Both the position numbers and the translations under genes were made by a program. From positions 2,532,501 through 2,596,500 of the forward strand of contig NC_020911.1 in the NCBI RefSeq assembly GCF_000155675.2: 64,000 bases of DNA, written 5' to 3'. A model generated the notes under the pieces. The model was given only the letters and a program-made list of their open reading frames with translations, ran no database searches and had not been told where the DNA came from. The stretch is from Octadecabacter antarcticus 307 (GTDB taxonomy: Bacteria > Pseudomonadota > Alphaproteobacteria > Rhodobacterales > Rhodobacteraceae). Shown here piece after piece: positions 13,238 through 63,971 of this stretch; position 1 is the first letter of the stretch, and every line of letters starts with the position of its first letter.

Positions 13238-14253
13238 CTAGGCGTCACATCCAGTGAGGTAGTAGGGGCTTTTCTTAAACAACTCTGGTTTGAGTTTGTG
13301 CCAGTCTTTCATGGCCTGCGAGGGCGTTTTGCTCTGCAGAACAGACTGCGGGAGTTGTCGATTATAGAGCAAGACATAACGGTGCATCGTCGCATTAAGG
13401 TCTTCCCCTGATCGGAAGTGATGGCTTTGAAGGACATCCTCTATACGCCCGTTGAACCGCTCAACCATGCCGTTGGTTTGAGGCGATTGTGGTGGTGTCA
13501 AACGGTGCTCGATGCCGAGTTCGGTGCACAGCTTGTCAAACTCATGTTTGCCGGTCGCGGCACGCTTGCGCAGGCCAAAGAGGCGGTCAGTGAACTCCTT
13601 CCCATTATCCATTGCCCGGCAGGGTATTGCGCAGCAATATCCCGAGAGGGGGTAAGAATGGTGCGAATGTGCAGCGGACAAGCGCGCTCAAGGTCACGTA
13701 GGAAACGTCGGGCATTGGCGGCAGTTTTGTTGCTATAGATACCAATGAACACCCACCGCGTGGCGCGATCGATGGCGACAAACAAGTAGCGGCGTGATGT
13801 CTCATCGGCCATTTGCGGCAGATATTTAACGTCAATGTGGATGTATCCGAGCTCATAAGCCTTGAAGGCGCTGTGCTTTGGCTTCGCCTCTTTGACCTTC
13901 AGGTCGCGCAGATTACCCACCCCATGACGACGCAAGCATCGATCCAAGCCCGAGCGTGAAACGTTCGGATTCAGAAACTCCCGGACCACTGCAAGTAAGT
14001 CATCAAGTGACACCAAAAGCGTCTTACGCAACGCCACCGCAACAAACTCCTGCGCTGGCGTGAGCGTCGTTTGCAAGCGATGTGGCGTGTGACTGCGGTC
14101 TTCGACACCGTCGCGGTGTCGCCACTTCAAAACGGTCTGCTCAGAGATGCCGTAGCGTTCACCCACCATCCAGGCCGGATCGTCGCTGGCTTGAATGGCG
14201 GCTCTAATCTTTGGTGTCGTCGTCGCTTGACTATGCAGTCGAATGAGCATCAC
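13238..14253 (-). pseudogene. IS481-family transposase interrupted by a palindromic element
   Basis: The N-terminal helix-turn-helix region (ASDDPAWMVGERYGISEQTVLKWRHR) and the first catalytic motif (YIHIDVKYLPQMADE) read from 14253. The frame breaks immediately before the second catalytic motif DNGKEFTD, where a 40-bp palindromic element (13613-13650) is inserted. It resumes in another frame as NGKEFTDRLFGLRKR and continues through the third catalytic glutamate region (QTNGMVERFNGRIED) to YYLTGCDA. Removing the element would restore one continuous protein, so the insertion is the lesion. Confidence 0.85.
13613..13650 (+). repeat. Palindromic element E1
   Basis: TGCCCGGCA box, stem GGGTATTGC / GCAATATCCC with loop GCA (one bulge), tail GAGAGGG. 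Inserted in the IS481 transposase just before the catalytic DNG codons; antisense to the transposase. Confidence 0.9.
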
Positions 14254-14562
14254 GTTTCTCCTTCCGAATGTCCTCTAAGACCGATCTTGCCATGAAAAAG
14301 GCCGAACGCCGAGGGTCAATGTGATCATCCGGGATGGAACGCCTAGGCTCTGTGCAGAGGCATATCTATAGCCTCTATACTGATCGCTTCATCCACTGCG
14401 CCGCAGGATTTTAACGGCCAAGGCACTGCTCCTGAGAGGGAATGGGACACCAATGTTGATGGTGCGCAGATCATGTGAAATCAGCGATTACGCGGCGCAA
14501 GTTCGCACACAGTGCGGCGAAACACCTGTATTTCTGGACGGAAGTTGCACCGAAGCTGACCG

Positions 14563-15180
14563 CTAGCGCAGCGCCGCAACGATCAAAACCGACGACATTT
14601 CGCCCACCGAACAGACCGCAAAGTCGCGCGCGGTATATCCGATGTCATACCACTGCGCCCGCGCAGTCAGGCCAATGGTGATGCGCGGCCCTGAGTTGAT
14701 CGGCTGACGTCCCCAATGGGCATCGGTAAACGGTTCGCCTATGAATAGCTGGGGCAAATCTGCGCGTGCAAGACCTGCTAACGCCATCAACACCCCTGCC
14801 ACGCATTCGACCTGCCGCGTGACCATCCCGCGCAAGGCAGCTTCTTCGCTGCGACGATTGCGAATGGCACGCAATGCCACATCCGCTATGCCGTGGCGCA
14901 CTTGGATAGCATGGCCCAAAACATGGGCCATTTCGTAAGGAGCCTGCGGACGCATGCTAAAGTCTTCGCTGACGAAGATCAGGTTCTGCGTAGCACAATA
15001 GCCGATGTGGGGGTTGGAATTGCGCCCGCCACCGCAAGCAGCGTTCAAATCTGCGCGCCCTTCAACCAATGGAATCTGCCCAAAGAGAGCCCTTGCCGTA
15101 TCATGAACGGCAATTGGATCAGCAATTGCGGAATGACATACGAGGGCGGAAAGCACCATAAGCACAAGGACTTTTTTCAT
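14563..15180 (-). CDS. Secreted protein resembling neutral zinc metallopeptidases, catalytic Glu replaced
   Basis: A 205-residue protein with a clear signal peptide (MKKVLVLMVLSALVCHSAIA). The middle matches the pattern of neutral zinc metallopeptidases (YpfJ/PF04228-like). AHVLGHAIQVRHG aligns with the usual AHEYGHHVQ, and QVECVAGV aligns with the downstream ADCYAGV. In this alignment the catalytic glutamate of HExxH is valine while both zinc-ligand histidines remain. It may therefore be a non-catalytic relative. The gene stands alone next to a convergent-oriented dead IS481. The family assignment is by motif pattern only. Confidence 0.6.
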   Translation of the reverse strand: MKKVLVLMVLSALVCHSAIADPIAVHDTARALFGQIPLVEGRADLNAACGGGRNSNPHIGYCATQNLIFVSEDFSMRPQAPYEMAHVLGHAIQVRHGIADVALRAIRNRRSEEAALRGMVTRQVECVAGVLMALAGLARADLPQLFIGEPFTDAHWGRQPINSGPRITIGLTARAQWYDIGYTARDFAVCSVGEMSSVLIVAALR

Positions 15181-15251
15181 TCCATTATCTCTCGCCCTTG
15201 CGCCCGTCGTGTCAAGCTGGCAGCACTAACTTAACAGCTTGGAACACGGTA

Positions 15252-16133
15252 ATGTCAGACATCTTTCGCGCAGCCCTCTGGATGACGGGGGCAATCGTTT
15301 CGTTCACATCCATGGCGATTACGGGCCGCGTAGTCAGTGTCGAACTCGACACGTTCGAAATTATGATGTTTCGCAGCTTAACGGGAATCGTTGTCGTGCT
15401 GATCGTGGGTAGCGTTGCAGGCACATTGCGCCAAGTGAATCGCCAGCAATTCGGTCTTCACGTCACCCGCAACCTTGCGCATTTTATCGGGCAGAACCTG
15501 TGGTTCTTTGCCCTGCCCCTGATCCCACTGACGCAACTCTTTGCTCTGGAATTCACCTCGCCGATCTGGGTCATCGTGCTGGCGCCGTTTTTGCTGGGCG
15601 AACGTCTTTCGCCAATCGGCGTTCTCGCTGCCACTTTGGGGTTCCTTGGTGTTATGATCGTGACGCAGCCGTTTCAAACCGAAATTTCGCTCGGCACCAT
15701 TGCCGCCGCCTGCGCCGCAGTTTCTTTCGCGTTCACTGCGATCTTCACCCGCAGATTAACCCGTACACAATCCATCACCTGCATCATGTTCTGGCTCACG
15801 GTGATGCAGGCGATCTTCGGCATCATCGGCGCAGGCTATGACGGCGACATCGCAATGCCGTCCGGTGCCACTTTGCCATGGATCATCCTGATCGGGTTTG
15901 CGGGGCTTTTGGCGCACTTCTGTCTGACTAAAGCCCTGTCGCTGGCCCCTGCCAGTATTGTCATGCCCATCGATTTCATCCGTCTGCCGGTCATTGCGAT
16001 TGTCGCGGCGCAAATATACGGCGAAGTGCTTGATTTATGGGTGTTTGTTGGTGCTGTGATCATTTTTGGGGCAAATTATCTGAATATTTCGTTCGGACAG
16101 CGACCCACCCGAATTGCCGTTACATCAAAGTGA
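15252..16133 (+). CDS. EamA/DMT-family transporter
   Basis: A 293-residue inner-membrane protein with about ten hydrophobic segments arranged as two EamA repeats. The first repeat contains QNLWFFALPLIPLTQLFALEFTSPIWV and the second LAHFCLTKALSLAPASIVMPIDFIRLP. Family members export metabolites or amino acids, or take up compounds by exchange; the substrate cannot be told from sequence. ATG 15252 is chosen because the first membrane segment follows directly. The gene is monocistronic as far as can be seen. Confidence 0.85.
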   Translation: MSDIFRAALWMTGAIVSFTSMAITGRVVSVELDTFEIMMFRSLTGIVVVLIVGSVAGTLRQVNRQQFGLHVTRNLAHFIGQNLWFFALPLIPLTQLFALEFTSPIWVIVLAPFLLGERLSPIGVLAATLGFLGVMIVTQPFQTEISLGTIAAACAAVSFAFTAIFTRRLTRTQSITCIMFWLTVMQAIFGIIGAGYDGDIAMPSGATLPWIILIGFAGLLAHFCLTKALSLAPASIVMPIDFIRLPVIAIVAAQIYGEVLDLWVFVGAVIIFGANYLNISFGQRPTRIAVTSK

Positions 16134-16247
16134 CGCTGCGGAGCGAACGTAGCGTCAAACACGGTTTCGGATTGACCAAAATGCCGCACTTTCCGTAGGG
16201 TGCTGCCAGGGAAACAACCGCTAAGCCGTGGTTAAGGGATGAAGTAA

Positions 16248-17351
16248 ATGAAAAACCTCACAACTGCAGGCGCGATCCTGCTTATGACGACAAGCATGGT
16301 GCAAGCGCTTGGTCTTGACAGATCAGGCCAGAACATCGGCGTTATCTTCGAAGAAGCTGACAACTATGTTGAACTGACTTTCGGATCGATCTCACCATCC
16401 GCGAGCGGCACAGATATCGCTGGTGTTGCAACAGGCAATGTTACGCAAGATTTCACCCAAATGGGACTTGCGTTTAAGCAGCAGTACACTGGCCAATTCT
16501 CGGCCGCGTTTATTGTTGATCAGCCATACGGTGCTGACATTCTTTATCCTGCGGCATCACCAGTTCTGGGCCTGACGGCTGCTGACCTCAATTCTGTGGC
16601 ATATTCCGTGATCGGTCGCTACAAGTTGGACAACGGCTTTAGCGTTCACGGTGGTCTTCGTATGCAGACACTCGACGCAAACATCACTTTGGGCGGCGCC
16701 GCATACGGCGGCCTGAACGGCTACAACGTTGATCTAGGTGAAGACACTGAACTGGGTTACCTTTTTGGTGCTGCCTACGAACGCCCTGACATAGCATTGC
16801 GTGTCGCTCTAACTTATTTCAACGCTGTTGATCATTCCTTTGATACGCAAGAGAATATCAATCCTGGTGTCACAACGCAGACCAATGTGACCTCTCCACA
16901 AGCCGTAAATCTGGATTTCCAGACTGGCGTTGCGGCTAACACGCTGGTGTTTGGTTCGGTCCGTTGGGCGGATTACTCCCAGGTCATAGTGTCGCCAGCC
17001 ACTTTCTCTACTGTAACAGGCGGCGCTTCCTTGACGGACATTGATTCCGGCTTTGCCTATAACATCGGTGTTGGTCGTCGTTTCTCGGATGCGTTTTCCG
17101 CGTCCCTGTCGGTCGGCTATGAACCGACAGGTGACGATTTGGTATCGCCACTTGCACCAACCAACGGGAACTACTCAGTTGCTCTTGGCGGCGCGTACAC
17201 CATGGACAACGGGTTCGAGATTTCGGGCGGCGTGCGCTACATTGTGCTGGGCGATGCCAGCCCTGAGACGGGGACACCTGATGTTGCTCGCGCGTCTTTT
17301 ACAGACAACGACGCAATCGCGGTTGGCCTAAAACTCGCTTACAGTTTCTAA
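16248..17351 (+). CDS. FadL/OmpP1-type outer-membrane porin
   Basis: A 367-residue predicted outer-membrane beta-barrel with a signal peptide (LTTAGAILLMTTSMVQA). The protein is rich in alternating hydrophobic strands and ends with an aromatic C-terminal residue (VGLKLAYSF), the usual outer-membrane insertion signal. The N-terminal plug-like stretch LDRSGQNIGVIFE and length fit the FadL/TodX family, which passes hydrophobic molecules such as fatty acids across the outer membrane. GGGATGAAGT precedes the ATG, and a strong terminator follows. The substrate is inferred from the family. Confidence 0.82.
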   Translation: MKNLTTAGAILLMTTSMVQALGLDRSGQNIGVIFEEADNYVELTFGSISPSASGTDIAGVATGNVTQDFTQMGLAFKQQYTGQFSAAFIVDQPYGADILYPAASPVLGLTAADLNSVAYSVIGRYKLDNGFSVHGGLRMQTLDANITLGGAAYGGLNGYNVDLGEDTELGYLFGAAYERPDIALRVALTYFNAVDHSFDTQENINPGVTTQTNVTSPQAVNLDFQTGVAANTLVFGSVRWADYSQVIVSPATFSTVTGGASLTDIDSGFAYNIGVGRRFSDAFSASLSVGYEPTGDDLVSPLAPTNGNYSVALGGAYTMDNGFEISGGVRYIVLGDASPETGTPDVARASFTDNDAIAVGLKLAYSF

Positions 17352-17374
17352 AACAGAAACCACGTAACAATCGT

Positions 17375-17405
17375 AAGCCCCGCCTATCAACAGGTGGGGC
17401 TTTTT
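17375..17405 (+). terminator. Terminator after fadL-type gene
   Basis: Stem AAGCCCCGCCT / AGGTGGGGCTT with loop ATCAAC, followed by TTTTT. Confidence 0.93.
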
Positions 17406-17442
17406 CGTTGCCCCGTTCGCCCCGTCACGCTAGCAAAGCCCC

Positions 17443-18306: not shown

Positions 18307-18346
18307 CCCGCCTACCTGCCTTCCTTCCCAACATAGGACCAATCAC

Positions 18347-19324
18347 ATGCCCATCCGTCTCCCCCGATCTCTGCCAGCTTTTGACGTGCTGTCGCGCGAA
18401 GGCGTGATGGTGATGGGACAGACTGCAGCCGATCAACAAGATATCCGCCCCATGCGGATTGGTATCCTGAACCTAATGCCAAAGAAGATTCAGACGGAAA
18501 ATCAATTCGCTAGGCTGATTGGTGCGACACCTTTGCAGATCGAGTTAACCCTGATCCGCATGTCCGAACACGAGGCCCGCAACACCGCTGCCAACCACAT
18601 GGAAGAATTCTACCGCACCTTCCAGGAGGTGAAAGATCAAAAATTCGACGGCCTCATTATCACCGGCGCGCCCATCGAACACCTCGACTTCGAAGATGTT
18701 ACCTATTGGGATGAGTTGTGCGAGGTTATGGACTGGACCCAGACCAACGTGCATTCCACTTTCGGCGTTTGCTGGGGCGGTATGGCAATGATCAACCACT
18801 TCCACGGCGTAAAGAAACACCTGCTGTCAGAGAAACTTTTTGGCTGCTACCGCCACATGAACTTCGCACCGCAAAGCCCTTATCTCAGGGGGTTTTCCGA
18901 CGAAATGTCGATGCCAGTCAGTCGCTGGACTGAGATGATGTGCGACGAAATTGACGCTGCTGGCCTGACGACGCTGCTGCATTCAGACGAGGTCGGCCCC
19001 GCGCTGGTGCAAGACCCTGATCACCGAGCGCTATATGTGTTCAACCATTTTGAATATGACAGCGACACGTTGAACCAAGAATACCTGCGCGATTTGGCGT
19101 CAAACCAGATTGCTGGCGCAGACATCCAGCTTCCAGTCAATTACTTCCCGAATGATGACCCGACAAAAACACCGCTCAATCGTTGGCGCAGTCACGCACA
19201 TCTTCTTTACGGCAACTGGATTTCGGAAATCTACCTGACGACGCCATACGATATTGATCAGATCGGGCTGTCCAGCACTGACCTGCGCGCCGCGTCCGAT
19301 GCCAATCCTGACACCACAGAATAA
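18347..19324 (+). CDS. metA: Homoserine O-acyltransferase (MetA family)
   Basis: A 325-residue enzyme of methionine biosynthesis that acylates homoserine. In alphaproteobacteria this family often uses acetyl-CoA rather than succinyl-CoA; the sequence alone does not let me decide. It contains the conserved start [28 protein letters not shown], the catalytic cysteine in [10 protein letters not shown] (about residue 142), and the histidine/glutamate in [11 protein letters not shown] 18347 is preceded by AGGA; the frame is open upstream but non-conserved. Full-length and intact. Confidence 0.94.
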
Positions 19325-21947: not shown

Positions 21948-22387
21948 TCGAATTTGTTGTTTTCGAATTGACTGTGCCAATCCGATCAAGAGGGGGACTA
22001 GGCTCAGGACCCGTTAAACTAATTAATGTTACGATGTCTGCGTGATTCAAAGTCCCAAATCGTGGGGGGTAGAATGAGCAATCTTTATTGGCTGAGTGAC
22101 GCGCAGATGGATCGGCTTCGGCCTTACTTTCCGAAGTGCCGAGGCCGTGCGCGTGGAGACGATCGCCGCGTTCTGATTGGGATTATTTTTATTAACCGCA
22201 ATGGGGTGCATAACTCTTCAAGGCATGAAAGGGTGGTGCCCAGTCTACGGTTGTGTGATGCGCCTGCCGAATACGGGCGGCCGAAGACTTTGTAAAATCG
22301 TTGGAAGCGCTGGAGTGATATGGGCGTGTTCGCCCGGATTATGATGGGGCTGGCAGAACAGGCCCCAGACAATAGGACAAATTCGAT

Positions 22388-22423
22388 CCCCTCTCATCGA
22401 AACCGTGTTTCGACTGCCGGGCA
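22388..22423 (-). repeat. Palindromic element E2 (at a deletion junction)
   Basis: TGCCCGGCA box, perfect stem TCGAAAC / GTTTCGA with loop ACG, tail GAGAGGG. Lies exactly at the internal deletion of the IS5 transposase. Confidence 0.88.
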
Positions 22424-22527
22424 GTGGATCGAGGATATGACGCCGACTGGTTCCGAGAAGGCCTTGTAGACAAGGGAACTCATCCTTCTATCCTTGGGCG
22501 CAAATCGCGCAAGACCACCATAAAATA

Positions 22528-22566
22528 CCCCTTTCGTGACATTGCTTTGCAATGCACTGCAGGGCA
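22528..22566 (-). repeat. Palindromic element E3 (degenerate)
   Basis: Box TGCCCTGCA, stem GTGCATTGC / GCAATGTCAC (one bulge) with loop AAA, tail GAAAGGG. Inserted in the IS5 transposase. Confidence 0.75.
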
Positions 22567-22738
22567 ATGGATAAGAGGCGCTACAAACGACGCAACCGTA
22601 TCGAGCGCATGTTCGGCAGGATCAAAGATTGGAGACGCGTCGCAACACGCTAAGACAGAAGCCCAACGGTCTTCCTCTCCACCATCATGCGCGCCGCAAC
22701 CGCTATGTTTTGGTTATGAGTCCTGAGCCTGGGCCCCG

Positions 22739-23130: not shown

Positions 23131-23407
23131 TGACCTGTGCCCCAATTTCCCTCCAGCTTTGCGCGGAGTCCTTGGTGCTAAATCTTTGACCTTAAGCGGC
23201 CATCTTGTCGATGATCCTTCTCTCTAAAAATTCCATTGGCGTCAGGTTCCCCAGAGCTGAATGTGGTCTGCGCCAGTTGTAGTCGTCCTGCCATTCTTCA
23301 AGCGTTTTGCGGGCGTCGCCCAATGTAGCAAACAGCGTTTCATTGAGGCATTCATCTCTTAGTTTACCGTTGAAGCTTTCGATGAACCCGTTCTGCTGGG
23401 GCTTGCC

Positions 23408-23443
23408 CCCTCTCATGGTTTGCAAGCAAACCACTGCCGGGCG
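23408..23443 (-). repeat. Palindromic element E4
   Basis: Box CGCCCGGCA, perfect stem GGTTTGC / GCAAACC with loop TT, tail GAGAGGG. Interrupts IS3 element 1 OrfB between HYIA and GKPQQNG. Confidence 0.88.
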
Positions 23444-23656
23444 GCGGGACGCGATATAATGCCAATCGATGCCCGTATTTTGAACCCATTTGAGGATCGC
23501 CATGCTGGTGAATTCTGTGCCGTAACACCTTCGGAATATCGCTAATTTAAGGCTATGACTGCCTGCGCAGCCCCAAATAACGCAGCAGGTGGTCATAGCC
23601 GTGCCTCAGGTCCCTACGGTGGTTTTGTACAAACCACACCGCAAAGGAGACCAACT

Positions 23657-24924: not shown

Positions 24925-25665
24925 TCGACAGCAGTAGGACCTTTCTCTGTAAGGGCCGTGGAGGCAGACAACTGACCTCGTAGATAATGTTTAGGCCTTC
25001 TGCTCAACGACCCAAAGATCTCGTCTTAAGGACGGTGAGAGCCGCAAAAGCGTACTCTGTGTTTGTTATGGGAGAGACAGTTCGTTGACCAAAATGCCAA
25101 ACTGAGCAATGCTTCTAACGTGTCGAGACGCCTCGATGCGACAATAACCTGACGCCAATTCAGCTAATCATTCCGCGCATAGGACGTTATCCGACACAAT
25201 CGTCTTTGGCATGCCGCGCTCAGCGATTACGCGGTCCAGTTCTCGGGCAACGCGCTGACCAGACAATGATGTGTCCGCGACAAGTACCAGGTTCTCGCGG
25301 CTGAAGTCATCGACAACCGTCAGAATACGAAACCGGCGACCGCCAGTCAGCGCGTCAGACACAAAATCTAATGACCATCTCTGGTTAGGACCATCACAGG
25401 CAGCACCATCGGCTTCCGCGTGCCCAAAGCGCGCTTTCTACCGCCCCTACGACGCACTTGGAGCTTCTCTTCAGTGTAAATGCGTCTCACCTTTTTGTGG
25501 TTCACCGCAAAGCCTTCGCGCGCGATCATCACATGAACACGACGGCAACCAAACCGTCGCCGCTCCCTCGAAACCCGCTTGATGGCATCACGCAACTCAG
25601 CGTCATCGCCGCGGCGAGACGGATACCGCACCGTTGATCGATCAACTTGCAAGACATCGCACGCC

Positions 25666-25703
25666 CCCTCTCGGCAGATTGCTTTGCAATCGCCTGCCGG
25701 GCA
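25666..25703 (-). repeat. Palindromic element E5
   Basis: TGCCCGGCA box, stem GGCGATTGC / GCAATCTGCC with loop AAA, tail GAGAGGG. Interrupts the N-terminal part of IS3 element 1 OrfB. Confidence 0.88.
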
Positions 25704-25769
25704 ATGGTCGCTGGCTAACCTGATGAGTTTCCATCAAGTGAACCACAGCTTTAAGCTTCCCAACGGGCG

Positions 25770-26074
25770 TCACCATTTTTTTGAATTGATGTCTCGCAAC
25801 ATTGCATTGTCCCTCGCCTGACAGGGTATTGCGCAGCAATGTCCCGAGAAGGGAGCATCTGTTCCGCTAGCAGCTTCTTTAGCTTCCCGTTCTCGTCTTC
25901 CAAGGCCCGCAACCGCTTCGCGTCAGACGGCTCCATGCCTCCATACTTCGATGTGTATTTATAGAACGTCGCTGAACTGATCCCGTCCCGCCGACATACA
26001 TCAGCAGTCTTCTCCCCAGATTCCTGTTCTTTGATAATTGCTATGATCCGTTCGTCTGTAAATCGTGCCTTCAT
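25770..26074 (-). pseudogene. IS3-family OrfA interrupted by palindromic element E6
   Basis: OrfA begins MKARFTDERIIAIIKEQESG, with the helix-turn-helix GEKTADVCRRDGISSATFYKYTSKYGG and the leucine-zipper part ALEDENGKLKKLLAEQML. Element E6 follows, then DNAMLRDINSKKW and stop. The 3' end has a run of seven A residues (about 25776-25782 in plus coordinates), a typical slippery site for the programmed -1 frameshift that makes OrfAB in IS3 elements. Confidence 0.82.
25815..25853 (+). repeat. Palindromic element E6 (degenerate box)
   Basis: Box CGCCTGACA, stem GGGTATTGC / GCAATGTCCC with loop GCA, tail GAGAAGGG. Interrupts IS3 element 1 OrfA. The stem is the same type as in E1 and E8. Confidence 0.8.
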
Positions 26075-31413: not shown

Positions 31414-31488
31414 TCCGGCGTAGCTCAGCGGTAGAGCAGTTGACTGTTAATCAATTTGTCGTAGGTTCGATCCCTACCGCCGGAGCCA
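31414..31488 (+). tRNA. tRNA-Asn (anticodon GTT)
   Basis: Complete cloverleaf with encoded CCA. Acceptor TCCGGCG pairs with CGCCGGA (31478-31484), discriminator G, CCA at 31486-31488. The D-arm is AGCTCAGCGGTAGAGC, the anticodon GTT is at 31446-31448 in loop CTGTTAA, and the T-arm is GTAGGTTCGATCCCTAC. Confidence 0.97.
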
Positions 31489-48065: not shown

Positions 48066-48197
48066 ATGTCACTTGACCCAATTCTGAACGCCTCACTTGT
48101 CATTCAACTCCACGTTATAGCAGCACTTTGTGCCGTGATCGTGGGACCCTTGGTTCTGTTTCGGCGATCTCGGGATGCCTGGCACAAGCGTCTTGGG
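48066..48197 (+). pseudogene. DUF2306 membrane protein, N-terminal fragment cut by IS1595
   Basis: ATG 48066 after AAGGA starts MSLDPILNASLVIQLHVIAALCAVIVGPLVLFRRSRDAWHKRLG, the conserved N-terminus of DUF2306 membrane proteins. The frame runs into IS1595 copy 2 at 48198 and stops at 48215. The rest of the gene is not on the other side of the element. Confidence 0.75.
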
Positions 48198-49365
48198 AAG
48201 GCTTATCCCTTTTAGTCCGGTTGCCCCACATGTTGACGCGGCGCAGAACCTCGCCCTTGTGGCTTGAGAGGCGGATCGGATCAGTTTGTAACATCTGGTG
48301 GGTTTATGGGGCGTGGCTTTTGCCGTGAACAAGGGCCTTCAGGCGCGCTGTTCAACAAAATCACGATATGTCGCTGGGCCAATACCAACACCGATCCCCA
48401 GCAGCGTGTCGAAGGCGCTTCGCATGTGTCGCCGTCGGTTCCAGCGGAACACAAATTCGTCGAGATAGCGTTGCAGATGGCATTTTCTGAGGCCGTGGAA
48501 GACGCCTTTTGCCCACGTTTTTAGGTTGGAGAACACGCGGTGGACCCAGTGGAGTATGTCATGTGCCTTCTTGCCGCTGACGACCTTCGCCTCATGCGTG
48601 TTTGCAGGGGGATTTTCGTAACCTAGCCAGCCATCCGTGATGACGTGAGCGCCAGGCTCTACAGCCTGACCAATGAACCCGTGTAGCGTCTTTGATGCGC
48701 CGTCGGGAATGTGTTTCATCCTGATACGGCGCGGATGTCCGTCTCTTGATAACTCGACGGCGCAGACGACAAACATCTTTCCGACCGGGCTCCGCCCACC
48801 CTTTGGCCGGTCCTCGGGATCATGCCGGGACCGGAACGGAATCTCTGTTTCATCGATCTCGACAAGGTCTTTCAGGGGGTTGCGGTCAGGGTTGACCATC
48901 GACCGCCGCAGCTTTTGCAAGAGGAGCCACGCCGTCTTGTAGCTGCCAAGGCCAAGTTGCGCCTGAAGTTGCAGCGCTGACATGCCGTTGGAATGGCTGG
49001 TGATGATGTGCGCGGCAAGAAACCAAATTCGCAACGGCAAATGGCTGCTGTGCATCACCGTGCCAGCCGTCACGGATGTCTGCCGTGCGCAACCGGCACA
49101 TTCCCAAGTCGCGCGATTTCGCTTTAACGGCCAGCCCTTGCAGGTGCCACAGGAAGGACACACAAAGCCCTCAGGCCAACGATGTTCCGCCAGATAATGC
49201 GAACACGCTTCCTCATCAGAAAACCTGGCGTCGAACGCCGGGCGGGACATGGGTTTGTCGTTTTTCCATCTGGCTGGCATGGGTAGAACAATACAAGAAC
49301 ATTGTAGATTGGCAAGCCGCTTCACACTACATCAGGTGCCGCCGGAGCAAAGGGGATAAGCCTTT
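48198..49365 (-). mobile_element. IS1595-family insertion sequence, copy 2
   Basis: Same length (about 1168 bp), ends and transposase protein as copy 1 at 7619-8786, in the opposite orientation. Unlike copy 1 it has no flanking direct repeat, and each side is a different truncated gene. This suggests a deletion or recombination at the element after insertion. Confidence 0.88.
48339..49280 (-). CDS. IS1595-family transposase, copy 2
   Basis: The translation is residue-for-residue the same as copy 1, including the zinc ribbon CPSCGTC...CAGC and the catalytic EIDETE and ITDGWLGY segments. The frame extends to a GTG at 49325; ATG 49280 (MPARWKNDK) is used here as in copy 1. Identity of the two copies indicates recent transposition. 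Confidence 0.9.
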   Translation of the reverse strand: MPARWKNDKPMSRPAFDARFSDEEACSHYLAEHRWPEGFVCPSCGTCKGWPLKRNRATWECAGCARQTSVTAGTVMHSSHLPLRIWFLAAHIITSHSNGMSALQLQAQLGLGSYKTAWLLLQKLRRSMVNPDRNPLKDLVEIDETEIPFRSRHDPEDRPKGGRSPVGKMFVVCAVELSRDGHPRRIRMKHIPDGASKTLHGFIGQAVEPGAHVITDGWLGYENPPANTHEAKVVSGKKAHDILHWVHRVFSNLKTWAKGVFHGLRKCHLQRYLDEFVFRWNRRRHMRSAFDTLLGIGVGIGPATYRDFVEQRA

Positions 49366-49888: not shown

Positions 49889-50020
49889 AACTCTGCACCA
49901 ACCGAATATATTTAATTACTCAATAGCACATTGACCTTGTTAGTCAAAATTGTCTGACGTCAGCGCTTCTATTTGATAAGAGAGTGTTGTTGGCTCATCG
50001 TAACCACTGAGGAGTGGGAC

Positions 50021-50432
50021 ATGAGACAGACAACTGGAACACGCAAAAGCCCGGGTGAGAAGATCGTCAAAGATATCAAACGGGCGACCCGCAATCATTA
50101 TTCATCTGAAGAGAAGATTAGGATCGTCTTAGACGGTCTGCGTGGGGAAGACAGCATTGCCGAGCTGTGTCGTCCACTGCCCGGCAGTGCATGTTTACAT
50201 GCACGAGAGGGGTGAAGGCATCTCCCAAGGCATCTACTACAAATGGTCCAAGGACTTTATGGAGGCCGGTAAGAAGCGCCTTGCGGGCGATACCGCCCGC
50301 GCCGCCACAACCGACGAGGTGAAGGATCTGCGCCGTGAAGCACGTGATCTGAAGGAAGTCGTTGCGGAGCAAACACTTGAACTCCGCTTGCTCAAAAAAA
50401 GCATGTTCGACGGTGGGGGCGACCACGAATGA
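50021..50432 (+). pseudogene. IS3-family OrfA interrupted by palindromic element E7
   Basis: MRQTTGTRKSPGEKIVKDIKRATRNHYSSEEKIRIVLDGLRGEDSIAELCR reads up to E7. After the element it resumes as EGISQGIYYKWSKDFMEAGKKRLAGDT and ends ELRLLKKSMFDGGGDHE. Excising E7 restores one helix-turn-helix subunit of about 125 residues. Confidence 0.85.
50178..50211 (+). repeat. Palindromic element E7
   Basis: TGCCCGGCA box, perfect stem GTGCATGT / ACATGCAC with loop TT, tail GAGAGGG. Interrupts IS3 element 3 OrfA between ELCR and EGIS. Confidence 0.92.
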
Positions 50433-51449
50433 GGTATCCCGCATCAGAGAAGCTGGAGATCATCAAGCTGGTCGAGGGGTCGCATCTGCCGGCCCGCCTG
50501 ACTTTGGCCAAGCTCGGCATTCCACGCACCACATTCTACCGTTGGTATGATCGGTATTGGCAGCGTGGTGAGGCTGGCTTGCAAGACCAATCTCCCAAGC
50601 CAAAGCACGTCTGGAACCGTATTCCTGACGAGGTGCGACGTCGGGTTGTGGACCTTGCGCTGGAAGAGACAGAACTGTCACCGCGTGAACTGGCAGTGAC
50701 CTTCACAGATAAGGAAAGCTACTTCGTATCAGAGGCTTCCGTATGCCGTATGCTGAAGGCGCATGACCTGATCACCAGCCCAGCCTTCATCGTCATGAAA
50801 GCCGCCAGTGCGTTCAAAGACAAAACCACAGCGATCAACCAGCTTTGGCAAACTGACTTCACCTATCCCAAGGTTCTGGGATGGGGCTGGTTCTATCTCA
50901 GTACGATCCTAGACGATTACAGCCGTTACATCATCTCCGCTGCCCGGCAGGGTATTGCGCAGCAATGTCCCGAGAGGGTGGAAACTCTGCACCAATATGC
51001 GGGCTGAGGACGTGACTGACACGCTCGACTTGGCCCTTAAGGCGTCCGGCTGTGATCAGGTTCACGTCGTTCACAAACCACGGCTGCTGAGCGACAACGG
51101 ATCCAGTTACGTATCCGGTGACCTGGCTGAGTGGTTGCAAGGGAAAGGCATGAAGCATTCTCGCGGCGCGCCATATCATCCGCAAACACAGGGCAAGATC
51201 GAGCGATGGCATCAAACCTTGAAGAACCGCATCCTCTTGGAAAACTACTTCCTGCCAGGTGATCTTGAAGCCCAAATTGAAGCATTCGTCGATCACTACA
51301 ACCACCAGCGCTTCCACGAGAGTCTGAACAACGTCACGCCGTCTGACGTCTACTTCGGCCGTGACAAAGCCATTCTACAACAAAGGGAAAGGATCAAACG
51401 AAAGACACTCGAAGCGCGCCGCTTGCATCACAGCCTGCACGCCACATAA
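50429..51449 (+). pseudogene. IS3-family OrfB interrupted by palindromic element E8
   Basis: MRYPASEKLEIIKLVEGSHLPARLTLAKLG to WQTDFTYPKVLGWGWFYLSTILDDYSRYIIS contains the first catalytic D. Element E8 then shifts the frame. Translation resumes as WKLCTNMRAEDVTDTLDLAL, LLSDNGSSYVSGDL (second D) and QTQGKIERWHQTLKN (catalytic E), ending RRLHHSLHAT. Start overlaps the end of OrfA. Apart from the element the gene appears sound. Confidence 0.9.
50941..50978 (+). repeat. Palindromic element E8
   Basis: TGCCCGGCA box, stem GGGTATTGC / GCAATGTCCC with loop GCA, tail GAGAGGG. About 40 bp are inserted after the codons YIIS of IS3 element 3 OrfB. Confidence 0.92.
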
Positions 51450-51514
51450 TGACACCAACCAGATGAGCCGAACGCTCTCTTAATTTAAGCCGCCTTTGGT
51501 GCCAAAAACCCTGA

Positions 51515-52313
51515 CGACGTACATTACACACCAGTTGGGGTGAATGCTGAGACGCTTAAGCTGATGCATGAGATTGATCGGATATTTACGAAATATCCAT
51601 TCTTTGGCAGCCGACAGATAGCAGCCTATTTGCCCCAGTCAGGGTTCTCTGCGGGTCGGCATCGTGTTCGTCGCATGATGAACATCATGCCTTGCCCGGC
51701 AGGCGATGCAAAGCATCGCTGAGAGGGGGTTGCAGGCCATCTACAAGGGGCCGAACACCAGCAAGAAGCACCCACAGCACCGCATTTATCCATACCTGCT
51801 GAGAAAGTTGGCAATCACCCGACCCAATCAGGTCTGGTGCAGCGACATCACCTACATACCCGTCAAGAATGGTTTTTTGTATCTGGTGGCGATCATGGAC
51901 TGGGCAACGCGAAAAGTGCTGACTTGGCGGCTCTCAAATACGTTGGATGCTAGCTTCTGTGTTGAGGCACTAGAGGAGGCTATCGCCCGATACGGCAAGC
52001 CAGAGATCACGAACACGTCCAGGGCAGCCAATACACTGGCGCGGGTTGGATCACAACTTTGACCGAAGCCAACATCAAAATATCAATGGACGGACGCGGC
52101 CGCTATCTCGACAATATCTTCATCGAACGTCTGTGGCGATCCCTGAAGCAGGAGGCCGTTTACTTGCATGAAATCACCGATGGGTTCCAAGCAAAACGGA
52201 TCATCGATACATGGATTGGGTTCTACAACTCAGAACGCCCTCACACGGCCCTTGATAAGCGAACACCGGACATCGCATACTTTGGCCATGCGGAGATACG
52301 AAAAACGGCATGA
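51515..52313 (+). pseudogene. IS3-family OrfB fragment (element 4), with palindromic element and frameshift
   Basis: It begins abruptly in TPVGVNAETLKLMHEIDRIFTKYPFFGSRQIAAYL, lacking OrfA and the OrfB start, directly after IS3 element 3. Element E9 interrupts VRRMMNIM / GLQAIYKGPNTSKKHPQH. The catalytic DITYIPVKNGFLYLVAIMDW follows. A one-base loss at about 52017-52020 destroys the DQGSQYTG motif, and the last part (MDGRGRYLDNIFIERLWRSLKQE) reads in another frame. Confidence 0.87.
51694..51728 (+). repeat. Palindromic element E9
   Basis: TGCCCGGCA box, perfect stem GCGATGC / GCATCGC with loop AAA, tail GAGAGGG. Interrupts IS3 element 4 OrfB. Confidence 0.92.
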
Positions 52314-54908: not shown

Positions 54909-54926
54909 AATATTTCCCATTTTAAC

Positions 54927-57039: not shown

Positions 57040-57046
57040 TTGTAGG

Positions 57047-58254: not shown

Positions 58255-58309
58255 GAGCAAGGTTGCTCCATCGGTTGAACTACGTCAAGTTACTTCGAAT
58301 AAGTATTCG
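58255..58309. promoter_or_regulatory. Two candidate LacI-type operators in the divergent control region
   Basis: Two perfect inverted repeats of the same 6-2-6 layout: GAGCAA-GG-TTGCTC (58255-58268) and CGAATA-AG-TATTCG (58296-58309), with centres 41 bp apart. The second lies 28 bp before the lacI-type start. LacI-family proteins bind palindromes of this size; which, if either, is used is not shown. Confidence 0.5.
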
Positions 58310-58337
58310 GATTGAACCAAGGACCGTACAGTAAGAG

Positions 58338-59336: not shown

Positions 59337-60072
59337 GACAAAACAAAGTGCACATATGCAATAAGCGCCTCCCAAATCATCGTCGGCAGGGGCTCGCAGC
59401 AGCCGACTGCCGCCCAGAACAAACTCCTGTTCCGCGACAGTTTGAATGTCCGCTCTCGACATTATCGCACTACCACCTCGCAATCGCAGTGAAAGTCCGT
59501 TCTCCGCCGATTCTGTTGAAAAACACCGTGTTGCGCGTGCAGAAAGTTGGGCGTCGAACAGGGCGCAAGCGCCTTTCTTATCAGGCTTTGCACGCTTGCT
59601 GCGTTGCAGGAAGGATCTTGGCTAGTTTGCGGAGGTTTTGGGCGGTTGCTGCGAGTAGAAATTCGTCATTTGCGCCGCATGGTCCTCGTAATCGAAGCCG
59701 TCCTAGCCCCAGGATGCGTTTGAGGTGAGCGAAGAGCATCTCGAGCTTTTTCCTCAGTCGCATTGAAACGGCGTATTGCTTGGTCTTAGCAATATCGCGG
59801 GCGACCTGGCGGGCGTCTTCGTGTTCTTCGCGGGTGATCTTGCGCACATCTGCATTCGGGCAACATTTAGGTTTTGAGGGACAGGCTTGGCACGACAACT
59901 TTAGCGCCTGATACTTGGCGACGCCCTTGCCGTCGGGGCCTCGGTTCGGGTCGGAATAGTTGCGGCGGAACTGCTTGAGCGCTTCGCCTTCCGGGCAGAT
60001 GTATTGGTTGTTCTCAGCGTCCCACTCAAAATCAGCGCGGCTCCATGTTCCATCTGTGCGACCCGCTTTGTC

Positions 60073-60106
60073 CCCTCTCGTGCATGTGAACATGCATTGC
60101 CGGGCA
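60073..60106 (-). repeat. Palindromic element E10
   Basis: TGCCCGGCA box, stem ATGCATGT / ACATGCAC with loop TC, tail GAGAGGG. Frameshifting insertion (37 bp) in the IS1182 transposase after the codons IPVI. Confidence 0.92.
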
Positions 60107-60673
60107 GTGAATGACAGGGATGTGGGGCGCGATCTTACGATCCACGAGCCAGCCAAGCATTGGGCCAGATCCGTAAGCGGTATCTGCGATGATACGTTCA
60201 GGATCCAAATCGAACTTGTCTTTGACCCGGTCCAGCATCGTGCGCACCGACCCAACTTCAGCCTGTCGGATTGATCGGGTAGCTTCAACATCAACGATGA
60301 CAGCATGGTCTGTGTCGATCAAATAATCAGTTGAATATGCAAAGAACGCTGGGCCTTTGCGGGCGGCAGTCCATTGACTGGAAGGATCAGAATGAGATGT
60401 GAACTTGGGTTCCACCTCGCTGGCTGCGCCGAATGCGGCATCATCCAAAACATCAAGGTATTCTCGAACGGCGCGCGGTGCATCCTCAGGATCGATGGTG
60501 CTCTGATCCCAATCTTCCTTCGGTGTTGAGTTCTGTTTGTTGGCGTCTGCCTCTATCAGGCTGGCATCCGCAGCAAAGCGTTGGCCGCTGACCAGTCCCT
60601 CAGCGATGCACCGCGCCACGGTCGTCTCAAACAAGTGACGCAGCAGATCGCTGTCGCGGAAACGGCCGTGCAC

Positions 60674-60709
60674 TGCCCGGCAGTGGTTTGCTTGCAAACC
60701 ATGAGAGGG
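60674..60709 (+). repeat. Palindromic element E11 (in-frame insertion)
   Basis: TGCCCGGCA box, perfect stem GGTTTGC / GCAAACC with loop TT, tail GAGAGGG. Adds 39 bp, that is 13 residues ([13 protein letters not shown]), to the IS1182 transposase without changing the frame. Antisense to the gene. Confidence 0.92.
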
Positions 60710-61410
60710 GCGGTTCTTGGAGAATGTCGAATGGTCCGGCACGCGATCCGTCAAATCGAGGCGGCAGAACCACCGATATGCGAGGTTCAGATGACCCTCT
60801 TCGCAAAGCCTACGCTCCGAACGAATGCCGAGACAATAACCGACCAGCAACATCCGGATCAGAAGTTCGGGATCAATCGAGGGACGGCCGGTGTTGCTGT
60901 AAAATGGCGCCAGATGCTGACGGATGCCAGACAGATCAGCGAAGCGGTCAATGGATCGCAGCAAGTGATCCTGAGGGACGTGATCGTCGATCGAAAACTC
61001 ATAAAACAACGCGCCTTGCGCCTCTTGCTTCGGTCCCAACATCGCAATCACCCCCCGTTATCAAGGATAATTGAATCAGCCGGAGAGCCTCAAATCAAGA
61101 AGATTTTTTCAACAGGATAAGCCGATTTTGTTGAAAAACACGGTGTTGCTGGTGCAGAAAGTTGGGCGCCGAACAGGGCGCGAGCGCTTTTCTTTTCACG
61201 CTTTTTGCATTTGCTGCGGTGCAGGAAGGATCTTGGCTAGTTTGCGGCAGTTTTGGGCGGTCGCGGCGAGGAGGAATTCGTCATTTGCGCCGCATGGTCC
61301 TCGTCATCTCAATCTGCCGTCCCAACCCAAGAATGCGTTTGAGGCTTGCGAAGAGCATTTCGACCTTCTTTCGCAGTCGCATTGAAACGGCATATTGTTT
61401 GGTTTTTGGC

Positions 61411-61444
61411 CCCTCTCATGCATGTAAACATGCACCGCTGGGCA
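61411..61444 (-). repeat. Palindromic element E12
   Basis: Box TGCCCAGCG, stem GTGCATGT / ACATGCAT with loop TT, tail GAGAGGG. Interrupts IS1182 element 2 between ARD and KTKQY. Confidence 0.88.
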
Positions 61445-61729
61445 GTCGGTGTCGCGGGCAACTTGACGTGCGTCTTCGTGTTCGTCGCGGGTGATCTTGC
61501 GAACATCGGTATTCGGGCAGCATTTGGCTTTGGATGGGCAGGCCTGACAGATCAGTTTAGGCCCACGATATTTTGTCCTGCCCGTCATGGTTGGGCCTCG
61601 ACTGGGATCGGAGGAGTTGCGGCGGAACTGCTTGAGCGACTGACTTTCTGGGCAGATGTACTTTTCGCCCTACGGGTCCCACTCAAAATTAGCGCGGCTC
61701 AGGGTGCCATCGGTGCGGTCAGCGTTATT

Positions 61730-61765
61730 CCCTCTCGCGCATGCTACGCAATACCCTGCCGGGCA
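61730..61765 (-). repeat. Palindromic element E13 (chimeric, at an IS3-IS1182 fusion)
   Basis: TGCCCGGCA box and GAGAGGG tail are intact, but the stem halves do not match. The left half GGGTATTGCG is the E8 type, and the right half TAGCATGCGC is of the E10/E18 type. On the box side the flank is IS3 (codons SRYIIS, the same site as E8). On the tail side it is IS1182 (NADRTDGT, the same site as E10). Confidence 0.9.
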
Positions 61766-61797
61766 GCGGAGATGATGTAGCGGCTGTGATCGCCCAC

Positions 61798-61854
61798 CCC
61801 TTTCATGGTTTGCGGGTCGTTTCGACGAAACGACTGGCGAACCACTGCCGGTCA
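61798..61854 (-). repeat. Palindromic element E14 (compound, 57 bp)
   Basis: Box TGACCGGCA, outer stem GGTTCGC / GCAAACC. In place of the usual 2-3 nt loop there is a second inverted repeat, GTCGTTTCG / CGAAACGAC with a 1-nt loop. Tail GAAAGGG. It looks like one hairpin nested in another. Confidence 0.82.
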
Positions 61855-62142
61855 AGGGATCGTACTGAGATAGAACCAGCCCCAGCCTATGATCTTGAAA
61901 TAGGTGAAGTCGGTCTGCCAAAGTTGATTGATTGCTGTGGTTTTATCTTTGAACTCACTGGCGGCTTTCATGACGATAAAGGCCGGGCTGGTGATCAGGT
62001 CAAGCGCCTTCAGCACGCGATAGACCGAAGCCTCTGATACAAAACGGCTTTCCTTGTCTGTGAAGGTCACGGCCAGTTCCCTCGGTGACAGTTTCGTCTC
62101 CTTCAGCGCCAGCTTGACGACCTTGCGCCGCACCTCGTCAGC

Positions 62143-62177
62143 ACCTCTCATTGATACTGCGTATCAACTGCCAGGCA
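62143..62177 (-). repeat. Palindromic element E15
   Basis: Box TGCCTGGCA, perfect stem TTGATAC / GTATCAA with loop GCA, tail GAGAGGT. IS3 element 3 has the empty site (ATTCCTGACGAGG), so this is a clean insertion of about 38 bp with no evident target duplication. Confidence 0.88.
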
Positions 62178-62312
62178 ATGAATGCGGTTCCAGACGTGTT
62201 TTGGCTTTGGTGATTGATCCTGCAAGCCAGCTTCGCCACGTTGCAGATATCGGTCATACCAACGGTAGAATGTGGTGCGTGGAATGCCGAGCTTGGCCAG
62301 CGTCAGACGGGC

Positions 62313-62349
62313 CCCTCTCGGCGTTTGCTAGGCAAAAGTCTGCCGGGCA
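62313..62349 (-). repeat. Palindromic element E16 (at a deletion junction)
   Basis: TGCCCGGCA box, stem GACTTTTGC / GCAAACGCC with loop CTA (two mismatches), tail GAGAGGG. Sits exactly where OrfA and OrfB of IS3 element 5 are joined by an internal deletion. Confidence 0.88.
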
Positions 62350-62733
62350 ACGGTCGCACGCTTGAAGTCTTTGACGATCGATCCGCCAGGGCTTTTGCGT
62401 GTTCCGTTATTCGGGGAAAACGCCCCACTGGGGCCTTTTCTGATCACTCCAACCCTGTCTCATAGAGGTGGTCCCAGTAATTCGACCAGTTTGCGGCCAA
62501 CTTAAGGTGGATCAGGGTTTCATTTAGGCTGCTGATCTCATTGGTTCTATTTTTCTGTCATAGGCTTCATCTGGGGTCAATATTCCGTGCGTGGAATGTG
62601 GCCGTTCTGCGTTGTAGTACGCAATCCATTTTTCAATCCCGGCGCGTGTTTCTGAACCGGTTTCAAATGCATTGAGATAGATGCATTCATATTTCAGGGA
62701 GCGCCAAAGTCGTTCGATCATCCGGTTGTCCGT

Positions 62734-62769
62734 TGCCCGGCAGTGGTTTGCTCGCAAACCATGAGAGGG
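62734..62769 (+). repeat. Palindromic element E17
   Basis: TGCCCGGCA box, perfect stem GGTTTGC / GCAAACC with loop TC, tail GAGAGGG. In IS3 element 6 OrfB after DGKGRW. Confidence 0.92.
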
Positions 62770-62797
62770 GGGCCAGCGACCTTTACCGTCCATGCAC

Positions 62798-62831
62798 TGC
62801 CCGGCAGCGCATGTTTACATGCGTGAGAGGG
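62798..62831 (+). repeat. Palindromic element E18
   Basis: TGCCCGGCA box, stem GCGCATGT / ACATGCGT with loop TT, tail GAGAGGG. Only about 28 bp from E17, on the other side of the DGKGRW codons. Confidence 0.92.
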
Positions 62832-62902
62832 GATATCCTTACGTCCGCATCCTTCAGTGCATTTATCCATTCAAAGCCAGTGAACTGACTGCCCTGATCC
62901 GT

Positions 62903-62940
62903 TGCCCGGCAGGGTTATGCGCAGCATGATCCCGAGAGGG
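62903..62940 (+). repeat. Palindromic element E19
   Basis: TGCCCGGCA box, stem GGGTTATGC / GCATGATCCC with loop GCA, tail GAGAGGG. Inserted just before the second catalytic Asp motif (DQG) of OrfB. Confidence 0.9.
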
Positions 62941-63016
62941 GCTGTTCATTATCGCTGGTTTCCCATATTTTGCGATGGCCTCTTTCAGGGCTTCAACGCA
63001 AAAGTCAGCCTCCCAC

Positions 63017-63053
63017 TGCCCGGCAGTGGTTTGCAAAGCAAACCGTGAGAGGG
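63017..63053 (+). repeat. Palindromic element E20
   Basis: TGCCCGGCA box, perfect stem GGTTTGC / GCAAACC with loop AAA, tail GAGAGGG. Confidence 0.92.
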
Positions 63054-63103
63054 ATGCTGTTTGACAAACGCCAACTGATAACTTTACGGCTGAACCAGTC
63101 CAC

Positions 63104-63140
63104 TCCTCTCGGCGTTTGCTACGCAAAAGCCTGCCGGGCA
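63104..63140 (-). repeat. Palindromic element E21
   Basis: TGCCCGGCA box, stem GGCTTTTGC / GCAAACGCC with loop GTA (one mismatch), tail GAGAGGA. Same orientation as the transposase gene. Confidence 0.9.
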
Positions 63141-63179
63141 AAGGATCGCGACCAGATACAGAAATCCGCGCCGCCTCGC

Positions 63180-63216
63180 TGCCCGGCAGTTGATTGCAAA
63201 GCAATCAATGAGAGGG
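63180..63216 (+). repeat. Palindromic element E22
   Basis: TGCCCGGCA box, perfect stem TTGATTGC / GCAATCAA with loop AAA, tail GAGAGGG. After the catalytic DITYIPP codons. Confidence 0.92.
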
Positions 63217-63417
63217 GGAATGTAGGTAATATCAACGCACCAGACCTGATTTGGCCGATCAATCGTCAGCCCCCGAAGCAGGTAAGGATAAATCTTATGC
63301 TGGGGGTGTTTCTTGCTCGTGTTTGGCGTCTGATAAATAGGAACCAATCGCATCAGGCGGCGAACGCGATGGCGACCGCATGTGTGACCATGACGCTGCA
63401 TGTGTCGTGCCATTCAC

Positions 63418-63452
63418 TGCCCGGCAGTGCATACGGAGTATGCATGAGAGGG
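63418..63452 (+). repeat. Palindromic element E23
   Basis: TGCCCGGCA box, perfect stem TGCATAC / GTATGCA with loop GGA, tail GAGAGGG. After GSRH in OrfB. Confidence 0.92.
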
Positions 63453-63814
63453 TGCCGAGATCCATACCATGGCGTTTCCAAGAACTGCTTGTCGATCAAT
63501 TCCATGAACCGCAGGTTCTCAGCACTCTCGCCTTTTGGAGCGTAATACAGATTTGAACGTGCCAGCGACAGCATCTGGCATTGCCGCCGCACGCTGACCT
63601 TCGGATGGTTTCTTTCAATGCACATCTGCCTGCGATCCTTGCTCAACGATCCCAGGCGCGTTTCAAAAAATCGCGCTCCACCACCAACTGACCAATCGTG
63701 GAATGAAGTTTGTCTATCGCGGCGTCATCGACCTGCGCTGGATCACCGCCTCGTTTAGAAAACCCCGCAGCCATATTCTTAATCGCGGCGCGCTTCCAAG
63801 TCCCAATCTGCGTA

Positions 63815-63850
63815 GCCTCTCAGTGTTTGCAAGCAAACACCTGCCGGTAA
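63815..63850 (-). repeat. Palindromic element E24
   Basis: Box TTACCGGCA, perfect stem GTGTTTGC / GCAAACAC with loop TT, tail GAGAGGC. In OrfA after KYGVH. Confidence 0.85.
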
Positions 63851-63935
63851 TAGATGCACGCCGTATTTTTTCGATAACTCCGCCATTGTCATTTCTTCGC
63901 AGATCGCTTCAAGCGCAACCTTGGCCTTGAAATCC

Positions 63936-63971
63936 CCCTCTCATCGTTTGCGAGCAAACAACTGCCGAGCA
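63936..63971 (-). repeat. Palindromic element E25
   Basis: Box TGCTCGGCA, stem TTGTTTGC / GCAAACGA with loop TC (one mismatch), tail GAGAGGG. In OrfA before DFKAKVALEAI. Confidence 0.88.

Follow-up and report, generated by a model that had tools for sequence, protein, structure and literature searches.

What is a hairpin of about 40 nucleotides (nt) doing inside transposase genes, and how did it reach so many of them? The question is raised by a stretch of 64,000 nt from Octadecabacter antarcticus 307 (hereafter the window), positions 2532501-2596500 of contig C2, in which an earlier reading of the letters (the original prediction) had noticed about 25 short palindromes, all lying in insertion sequences (IS). 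We propose, at a probability of roughly 60%, that these palindromes are copies of a non-autonomous mobile hairpin of ~40 nt that is housed in IS genes and carried along by IS amplification. The element is inserted DNA, found in IS genes behind a loose YCR(TC) motif and without target-site duplication. From copy to copy, the same few IS sites are occupied by differing stem types, and the element reaches new places when its host IS amplifies.

The genome amounts to 4,875,481 bp in two contigs, of which C2 has 4,812,600 bp; a 4.8-Mb chromosome and a 63-kb plasmid are given in the genome publication (PMC3646047). Across it, the exact pattern TGCCCGGCAN{14,26}GAGAGGG has 289 matches and the reversed pattern none. 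A systematic sample was formed from the window and 59 stretches of 20 kb, 1.244 Mb in total, after exclusion of one stretch that lies in the window. In this sample a looser detector gave 151 matches, against one in the reversed sequence, and a covariance model trained on 62 sites gave 173 at E ≤ 0.0035. Twenty-five of the latter lie in the window between 13608 and 63976, with E ≤ 6.8e-5, which is the number counted in the original prediction; three of them were among the training rows, and one further match, at 14392, is at chance level (E 0.91). From the sample, 81 representative sites were drawn, reduced to 79 by removal of two chance matches, L071:13860 and L095:16792, which sit in core genes and were dropped by eye; four other detector matches were also discarded.

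The element follows the consensus TYCRY-TGCCCGGCAG-stem-loop-YGAGAGGGG. The layout described in the original prediction, a box TGCCCGGCA, a stem-loop and a GAGAGGG tail, is seen again, with cores of 34-38 nt and one of 57 nt. Alignment of 62 of the 81 representative sites, with long or more diverged sites excluded, gives TCCACTGCCCGGCAG...GAGAGGGG, where TYCRYTGCCCGGCAG on the left and GAGAGGGG as the tail are near-invariant and the intervening stem of 7-9 bp is highly variable. Over nine pairs in these 62 sites, stem covariation is 0.650 as compared with 0.230 +/- 0.018 in shuffles, of which 0 of 500 reach the true value; 93.4% of the stem cells are paired, as against 65.7% in shuffles, and slid-alignment controls score 0.03-0.09 against 0.65 for the true stem. 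Eight of the nine pairs have changed on both sides, as in a coherent single family. Covariation and high pairing despite varied stems indicate that the structure is kept, not the stem sequence. A chance origin of the family is rejected by these shuffles and by the 289 exact matches against none for the reversed pattern. Some stem types have a bulged base on the 3' arm, as read from the alignment. When six window copies were folded as single-stranded DNA, the stem formed in all six, at energies that are modest relative to shuffles (z -0.5 to -2.1). The element does not have inverted repeats at its ends, which read TCCRY and GAGAGGGG. A known structured RNA was considered and rejected: an Rfam scan of the window (cmscan, gathering thresholds) returned a single match, a tRNA gene at 31414-31485, and none to the element. 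A short GC-rich relative of the form TGCCCGGCAGGCGGC-TTY-GCCGCCGAGAGGG occurs at L188:1230-1260, in genome G029, and in L246 (Leisingera sp. ANG1); the L188 relative directly follows a gene for a class II tRNA synthetase and is possibly a terminator or the ancestral source of the hairpin family.

IS-like DNA, mapped by blastx similarity to transposase clusters found in the sample, covers 137,363 nt (11.0%); the non-IS DNA consists of 1,005,543 nt in open reading frames (ORFs) of at least 100 amino acids (aa) and 101,094 nt of non-ORF DNA. Of the 173 sampled elements, 145 lie inside IS-like DNA (L099:19039 included), 25 within 439 nt of it and three farther away, and these three (one in L050, two in L085) adjoin frames recognised by eye as remnants of IS3 and IS5. 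Hence each of the 173 either lies in an IS gene or its remnant or adjoins one, and the confinement claimed for the window extends to the whole sample. Within the window, 22 of the 25 elements fall in the IS-like map and three within 329 nt of it; the mapped IS-like DNA there comes to 16.4 kb, and the earlier estimate of about 10 kb was too low. With the three outliers counted as IS remnants, the density comparison with ordinary intergenic DNA returned zero elements in the 101 kb of non-IS, non-ORF DNA. An even spread of the 79 independent sites over IS-like and non-IS non-ORF DNA would place ~33 in the latter, where none is seen (P about 1e-19 for this null, with the same three remnants taken as IS). 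The host genes or their clusters carry the Pfam names rve, DDE_Tnp_1, DDE_Tnp_1_6, DUF4096 and DEDD_Tnp_IS110/Transposase_20. For the 81 sites, 71 hosts were assigned by blastx to clusters taken as transposases, not all of them Pfam-backed, and seven as transposase fragments by eye; besides the two chance matches in core genes, one site, s37 (L080:3284, L101:6474), is left over, 68-92 nt from mapped IS-like DNA and with an IS membership that is not evident by eye.

Not every IS group in the sample is invaded. None of eight sampled IS1595-type copies carries an element, neither the two window copies at 7616-8787 and 48185-49365, as had been noticed before, nor six others, which makes this the clearest multi-copy IS group without any. 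IS110, whose two window elements have none according to the original prediction, is not exempt in general: elsewhere in the genome elements are present in IS110 genes. The bias could also be one of survival: hairpins would insert everywhere and persist only in dispensable IS genes, intact relatives amplifying the broken IS in trans. We regard this as quite unlikely, because equal density would predict ~58 elements in the 101 kb of non-IS, non-ORF DNA, if the density is taken from the 137 kb of IS-like DNA, which together with its surroundings has 79 independent sites. In its favour, the published table for O. antarcticus 307 has one gene and 16 pseudogenes for IS481 and one and 14 for IS1182 (PMC3646047, Table 3), and two further points in favour, from the amplified IS, are given below.

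That the hairpins are insertions follows from comparison of filled sites with element-free sister copies, which shows a net gain of mostly 37-41 bp. In the window itself, two related IS3-type copies differ by a clean 38-nt insert, present at 62141 and missing from the copy near 50.6 kb. At 38 of the 81 representative sites some alignment spans an empty junction, many of these at only 68-85% identity. The close full/empty pairs lack a target-site duplication, and in several of them (site28 at 96%, site67 at 93% and site66 at 92%) 0-3 target bases are replaced. The flank logo of 79 sites shows YCR-TCC upstream, G downstream and little further. Elements inserted into elements are found as well: in four places in three stretches, the box of one element houses a second, oppositely oriented one, as read from flanks and model matches (L055:18388-18462, with members at 18388 and 18428, L079:7921-7994, L080:4057-4130 and L080:13368-13441).

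Insertion sites recur. In the IS903-type transposase, with a coding sequence of 930 nt, elements fall on about 12 positions, and 15 distinct loci have an element at nt 358, with five clearly different stem types among them (19 rows, four of which are repeat fetches). The IS903-type copies L134 and L135 differ by nine synonymous and two nonsynonymous changes over 301 codons; they have unlike stems at nt 358, and an element at nt 680 is found in L135 only. Such differences between near-identical copies imply either that insertion is strongly site-specific and often repeated or that stems are exchanged between elements. At L151:1996-2029 an element at an IS903 site is preceded by a roughly 10-nt target duplication; L147, a relative of L151, has another stem at that site and no duplication. 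We hypothesize that the hairpin inserts via a single-stranded intermediate, moved by an enzyme encoded elsewhere along an HUH/IS200-like "peel-and-paste" or similar single-stranded DNA path, and that it is joined by microhomology of 2-3 nt. The bias towards IS might arise from insertion into IS transposition intermediates or from another property of multi-copy IS, after which the hairpins would hitch-hike with IS between genomes.

Whether a hairpin ends the career of its host is a matter of mixed evidence, to which three amplified groups contribute. There are 22 copies of an IS903-type IS whose element contains an in-frame TGA; every one carries the element, and their protein sequences are 100% identical; the 9-bp target duplication is kept in two of nine sampled copies, and an element-free version was not found by exact flanks in 61 genomes. 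Four intact IS903-type relatives with 80% amino-acid identity (L129-L132, at 3138956, 4077149, 4480590 and 4483047) end in 16-bp terminal repeats identical to those of the 22 broken copies and could move these in trans, which is the kind of helper that survival in dispensable genes calls for. The IS3-type IS at 49951-51523 (+), with one hairpin in orfA and one in orfB, has 10 genomic copies by protein search, in all of which the orfB match ends at residue 170, the position of the hairpin. Both hairpins are present in eight of eight sampled copies, with frames open on either side; as to its ends, a 6-bp repeat stands at both in one sampled copy and is absent in four others with both ends visible. 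The third group lies in another genome, G031, where six copies of one IS are each split into four pieces, and the four copies read contain four hairpins apiece in both orientations. Hairpin-bearing IS in 22, 10 and six copies must have moved, whether through a product of their own or with the aid of helpers. No helper was found for the IS3-type IS or the G031 IS, which speaks against survival in dispensable genes as the explanation.

Of the two possibilities raised in the original prediction, a miniature element that targets transposons fits the data, which comprise real insertions, strong enrichment in IS and the same pattern in many Rhodobacterales. The other, a system that disables IS elements, is unsupported as stated, because hairpin-bearing IS have amplified, elements occur on both strands and neither an enzyme nor a dedicated locus was found. 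The least probable of the readings considered here is that insertions are favoured for shutting down harmful transposases, as host defence or as self-restraint of the IS. A net length that is not a multiple of three in 66 of the 81 sites would suit this function, as would the many IS pseudogenes noted in the genome publication (PMC3646047). Besides the amplification of hairpin-bearing IS, however, several elements pile up in one IS that was already broken (nine in a roughly 2-kb region), elements are present in old IS remnants, and the analysis, which included no PADLOC search, identified no locus of a defence kind.

Could the laden transposases instead remain functional in cis, with the hairpin removed from the mRNA as a mini-intron, or skipped, frameshifted or read through? 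The 10-copy IS3-type IS speaks for this, with hairpins in both of its genes and no intact close relative found in the genome, where after fragments the next matches have ~30% identity; its hairpin-free orfB site was found 0 times in the 61 genomes by exact pattern. The nearest full-length relative of the split G031 IS has only 33% identity, and some insertions are in frame and open, namely in an IS256 coding sequence of a Sulfitobacter plasmid, annotated across the element, and in the IS3-type frame of L105. Yet the strands are equal (29 sense, 32 antisense and 20 assigned to neither among the 81 representative sites), the G031 IS holds both orientations, and net lengths occupy all three classes modulo 3, core+3 being divisible by three in 15 of 81 sites, a count that includes the two later judged chance. 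A sense-strand bias of amplified IS was considered and dropped: it does not hold in G031 and apparently not in G014 either. Moreover, the helper transposase could since have disappeared or may reside in another strain, and broken IS are multi-copy without hairpins too: a piece of 757 bp, with a longest frame of 119 aa in its representative, occurs in seven places, only three of them with an element, and G014 has IS3-type copies of this kind. In these, five similar copies (G014:C1:963703-964443 and four places) have an in-frame TGA, one of them two, and a full-length match leaves no room for a hairpin; they are either an amplified broken-frame IS or a case of TGA read-through.

Substitutions within the amplified groups are near neutral, with 16 synonymous, 31 nonsynonymous, 0 stops and nine indel runs when the doubly counted site4/site7 region is omitted (59, 75, 2 and 16 with it). 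Near-neutral change sits better with survival in dispensable genes than with transposases functional in cis. As proof of function these counts were rejected; the terminal branches of IS copies are expected to be neutral either way. Where computable, dN/dS between IS903-type copies is 0.04-0.16, which shows old selection on the transposases and is not evidence of selection after the insertions. Taken together, function in cis by removal or bypass of the hairpin is in our judgement unlikely, if the best placed of the alternatives. About equally unlikely is its bolder form, in which the hairpins would be bacterial counterparts of mobile introns and byps and the laden IS, staying autonomous, would spread them through a bacterial order.

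The mobile hairpin that we propose has to face several observations that weigh against it. A moving enzyme or dedicated locus was not found. The genome has 24 Y1_Tnp matches, and in none of the five loci that were fetched is an element closer to the Y1_Tnp gene than 300 nt; the IS200-type ends read in L031 and L034 are unlike the hairpin element, and the 0-3 replaced target bases do not fit the scarless insertion of IS200-type elements. At least one element in an IMG/VR viral contig (L383:5558-5594) overlaps an ORF for a C-5 cytosine DNA methylase, and several elements in other taxa sit in ORFs without a Pfam match, so that confinement is not absolute outside this genome.

Literature searches for a family with a box-hairpin-tail layout yielded none in the excerpts they returned. 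Among the known systems nearest in form are the REP elements, which, according to PMC3733652, are hairpins of 20-40 nt with a GTAG or CGTC tag, high copy number and many stem variants. According to the same paper, CGTC REPs are frequent in alphaproteobacteria and no dedicated transposase is known for them; their tail is short, usually CCA, and they often form dimers; some REPs lie in coding regions, the link of CGTC elements to transposase genes is only fortuitous, and RPE-4 and RPE-6 are equated with CGTC repeats (PMC3733652). The hairpin element shares size, copy number and stem variety with REPs. In contrast, it has no conserved GTAG or CGTC tag in the 62-site alignment, its tail is another one, and it lies inside transposase genes and not extragenically (173 of 173 sampled); the comparison suggested in the original prediction thus gives no match to that family. 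A new REP branch moved by a RAYT-type Y1 transposase is therefore very unlikely in our view. Size, hairpin and lack of target duplication would agree with it, and two of the 24 Y1_Tnp matches have an element within about 230 nt: the one at L143:360-395 lies ~20 nt from a truncated match (L143:417-719) and the one at L080:4269-4309 ~230 nt from another. This proximity may be chance in IS-dense DNA, and no flanking RAYT was seen in the five loci fetched. A weak leading-strand excess (43 of 65 low-copy sites), which would also suit this origin, fades to about 12 of 18 when clusters are counted once, and lagging-strand insertion was rejected for the same reason.

Miniature inverted-repeat transposable elements (MITEs) are likewise small non-autonomous insertions in IS-rich genomes, but the full/empty pairs of the hairpin element show no target-site duplication and its ends are not inverted repeats; an IS that shares its ends was not noticed, no systematic search having been made. 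The palindromic elements of Rickettsia and Wolbachia (RPE and WPE) are longer and invade many kinds of gene, largely in frame. The hairpin element is palindromic and invades coding sequence as they do, and differs, by description and not by sequence comparison, in being ~40 nt, in occupying IS genes in the sampled genome and in a length that is mostly not a multiple of three. Mobile hairpins of mitochondria (GC clusters, double-hairpin elements, RHE and byps) are tiny and lie in genes, and some are bypassed; here the hairpins are bacterial and IS-confined, and a bypass is only hypothetical. In IStrons, as described in the excerpt of PMC4227781, an IS is made harmless by a spliceable partner, a likeness that stops short of the 40-nt hairpin element, which has no group I intron or ribozyme. 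The hairpin element thus falls outside REP and MITE by those definitions that were tested, and its likeness to RPE and the mitochondrial hairpins is one of style only.

The hairpin family recurs in IS of many Rhodobacterales. Among 61 genomes the exact pattern is found in 19, all of one family represented by 37 genomes, and in none of the 24 from other families; the richest besides O. antarcticus 307 are G014 (48 matches), G025 (30), G031 (11) and G020 (7). In other genomes, too, the matches lie mainly in IS. Of the elements in the fetched stretches of relatives, only six lack blastx similarity to sample proteins, four of them in L175 and a single one in either of L188 and L189; a similar hairpin in L188, behind the tRNA synthetase gene of G029, is an exception to IS confinement. 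Pattern scans of public genomes and viral contigs gave at least 204 matches; a filter for the hairpin left 68 of them and one for the flanks 45. Among the matches listed, 34 of these 45 have blastx similarity to sample proteins, mostly but not always transposase clusters, and the named hosts that passed the filter are by record title mostly Rhodobacterales, with single cases in Cohaesibacter and Vreelandella. Three element queries matched 11, 90 and 1 records of plasmids, which among the matches listed belong mostly to Roseobacter-group genera, and one element query against phage records gave no match. Outside this genome the hosts include Transposase_mut by Pfam and, by plasmid annotation, transposases of IS256, IS5, IS66 and IS3.

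The 25 window elements are given here with strand and the E value of the covariance model. The leftmost lie at 13608-13652 (+, 5.9e-14), 22387-22428 (-, 3.4e-11), 22527-22571 (-, 4.1e-10), 23406-23448 (-, 3.7e-12; the same insertion in four sampled IS copies), 25664-25708 (-, 5.5e-13) and 25810-25854 (+, 8.3e-7; diverged). In the IS3-type IS at 49951-51523, delimited by its ends, the orfA hairpin is at 50173-50213 (+, 7.5e-12), where joining of the flanks brings the frames together, and the orfB hairpin, placed by the reading frames, at 50936-50980 (+, 1e-12); the next element is at 51688-51729 (+, 3.8e-12). The one at 60071-60111 (-, 1.8e-10) lies in an IS1182-like gene (Pfam DDE_Tnp_1_6) and is a training row, as are 60669-60711 (+, 3.8e-13) and 62311-62354 (-, 1.3e-10). 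Further elements are at 61409-61449 (-, 1.7e-6), at 61728-61770 (-, 1.7e-6), which by alignment occupies, in a diverged IS copy, the orfB site of 50936-50980, at 61796-61859 (-, 1.9e-5), a long element with a full/empty pair whose 57-nt core has an extra hairpin in the loop according to its fold, and at 62141-62182 (-, 5.4e-9), the place that a full/empty pair shows to be empty in the copy 49951-51523. A dense series follows at 62729-62771 (+, 7e-14), 62793-62833 (+, 1.9e-10), 62898-62942 (+, 5e-13), 63012-63055 (+, 3.2e-12), 63102-63145 (-, 2e-11), 63175-63218 (+, 3.1e-13) and 63413-63454 (+, 4.8e-11). The last two are a diverged hairpin at 63813-63854 (-, 6.8e-5), 206 nt from mapped IS-like DNA, and one at 63934-63976 (-, 8.4e-12) in a by-eye IS3 orfA, 329 nt from such DNA, whose site has a full/empty pair in L074/L101 at 96%.

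In conclusion, the hairpin is an unusual and testable parasite of parasites, some of whose broken hosts kept multiplying, and it would be the smallest known mobile element specialised on other mobile elements. It offers a test bed for how short bacterial palindromes move and why their insertion sites recur, and for whether transposase genes stay active despite frame-breaking hairpins. In O. antarcticus 307, the hairpins may account for part of the many transposase pseudogenes that the genome publication reports (PMC3646047).

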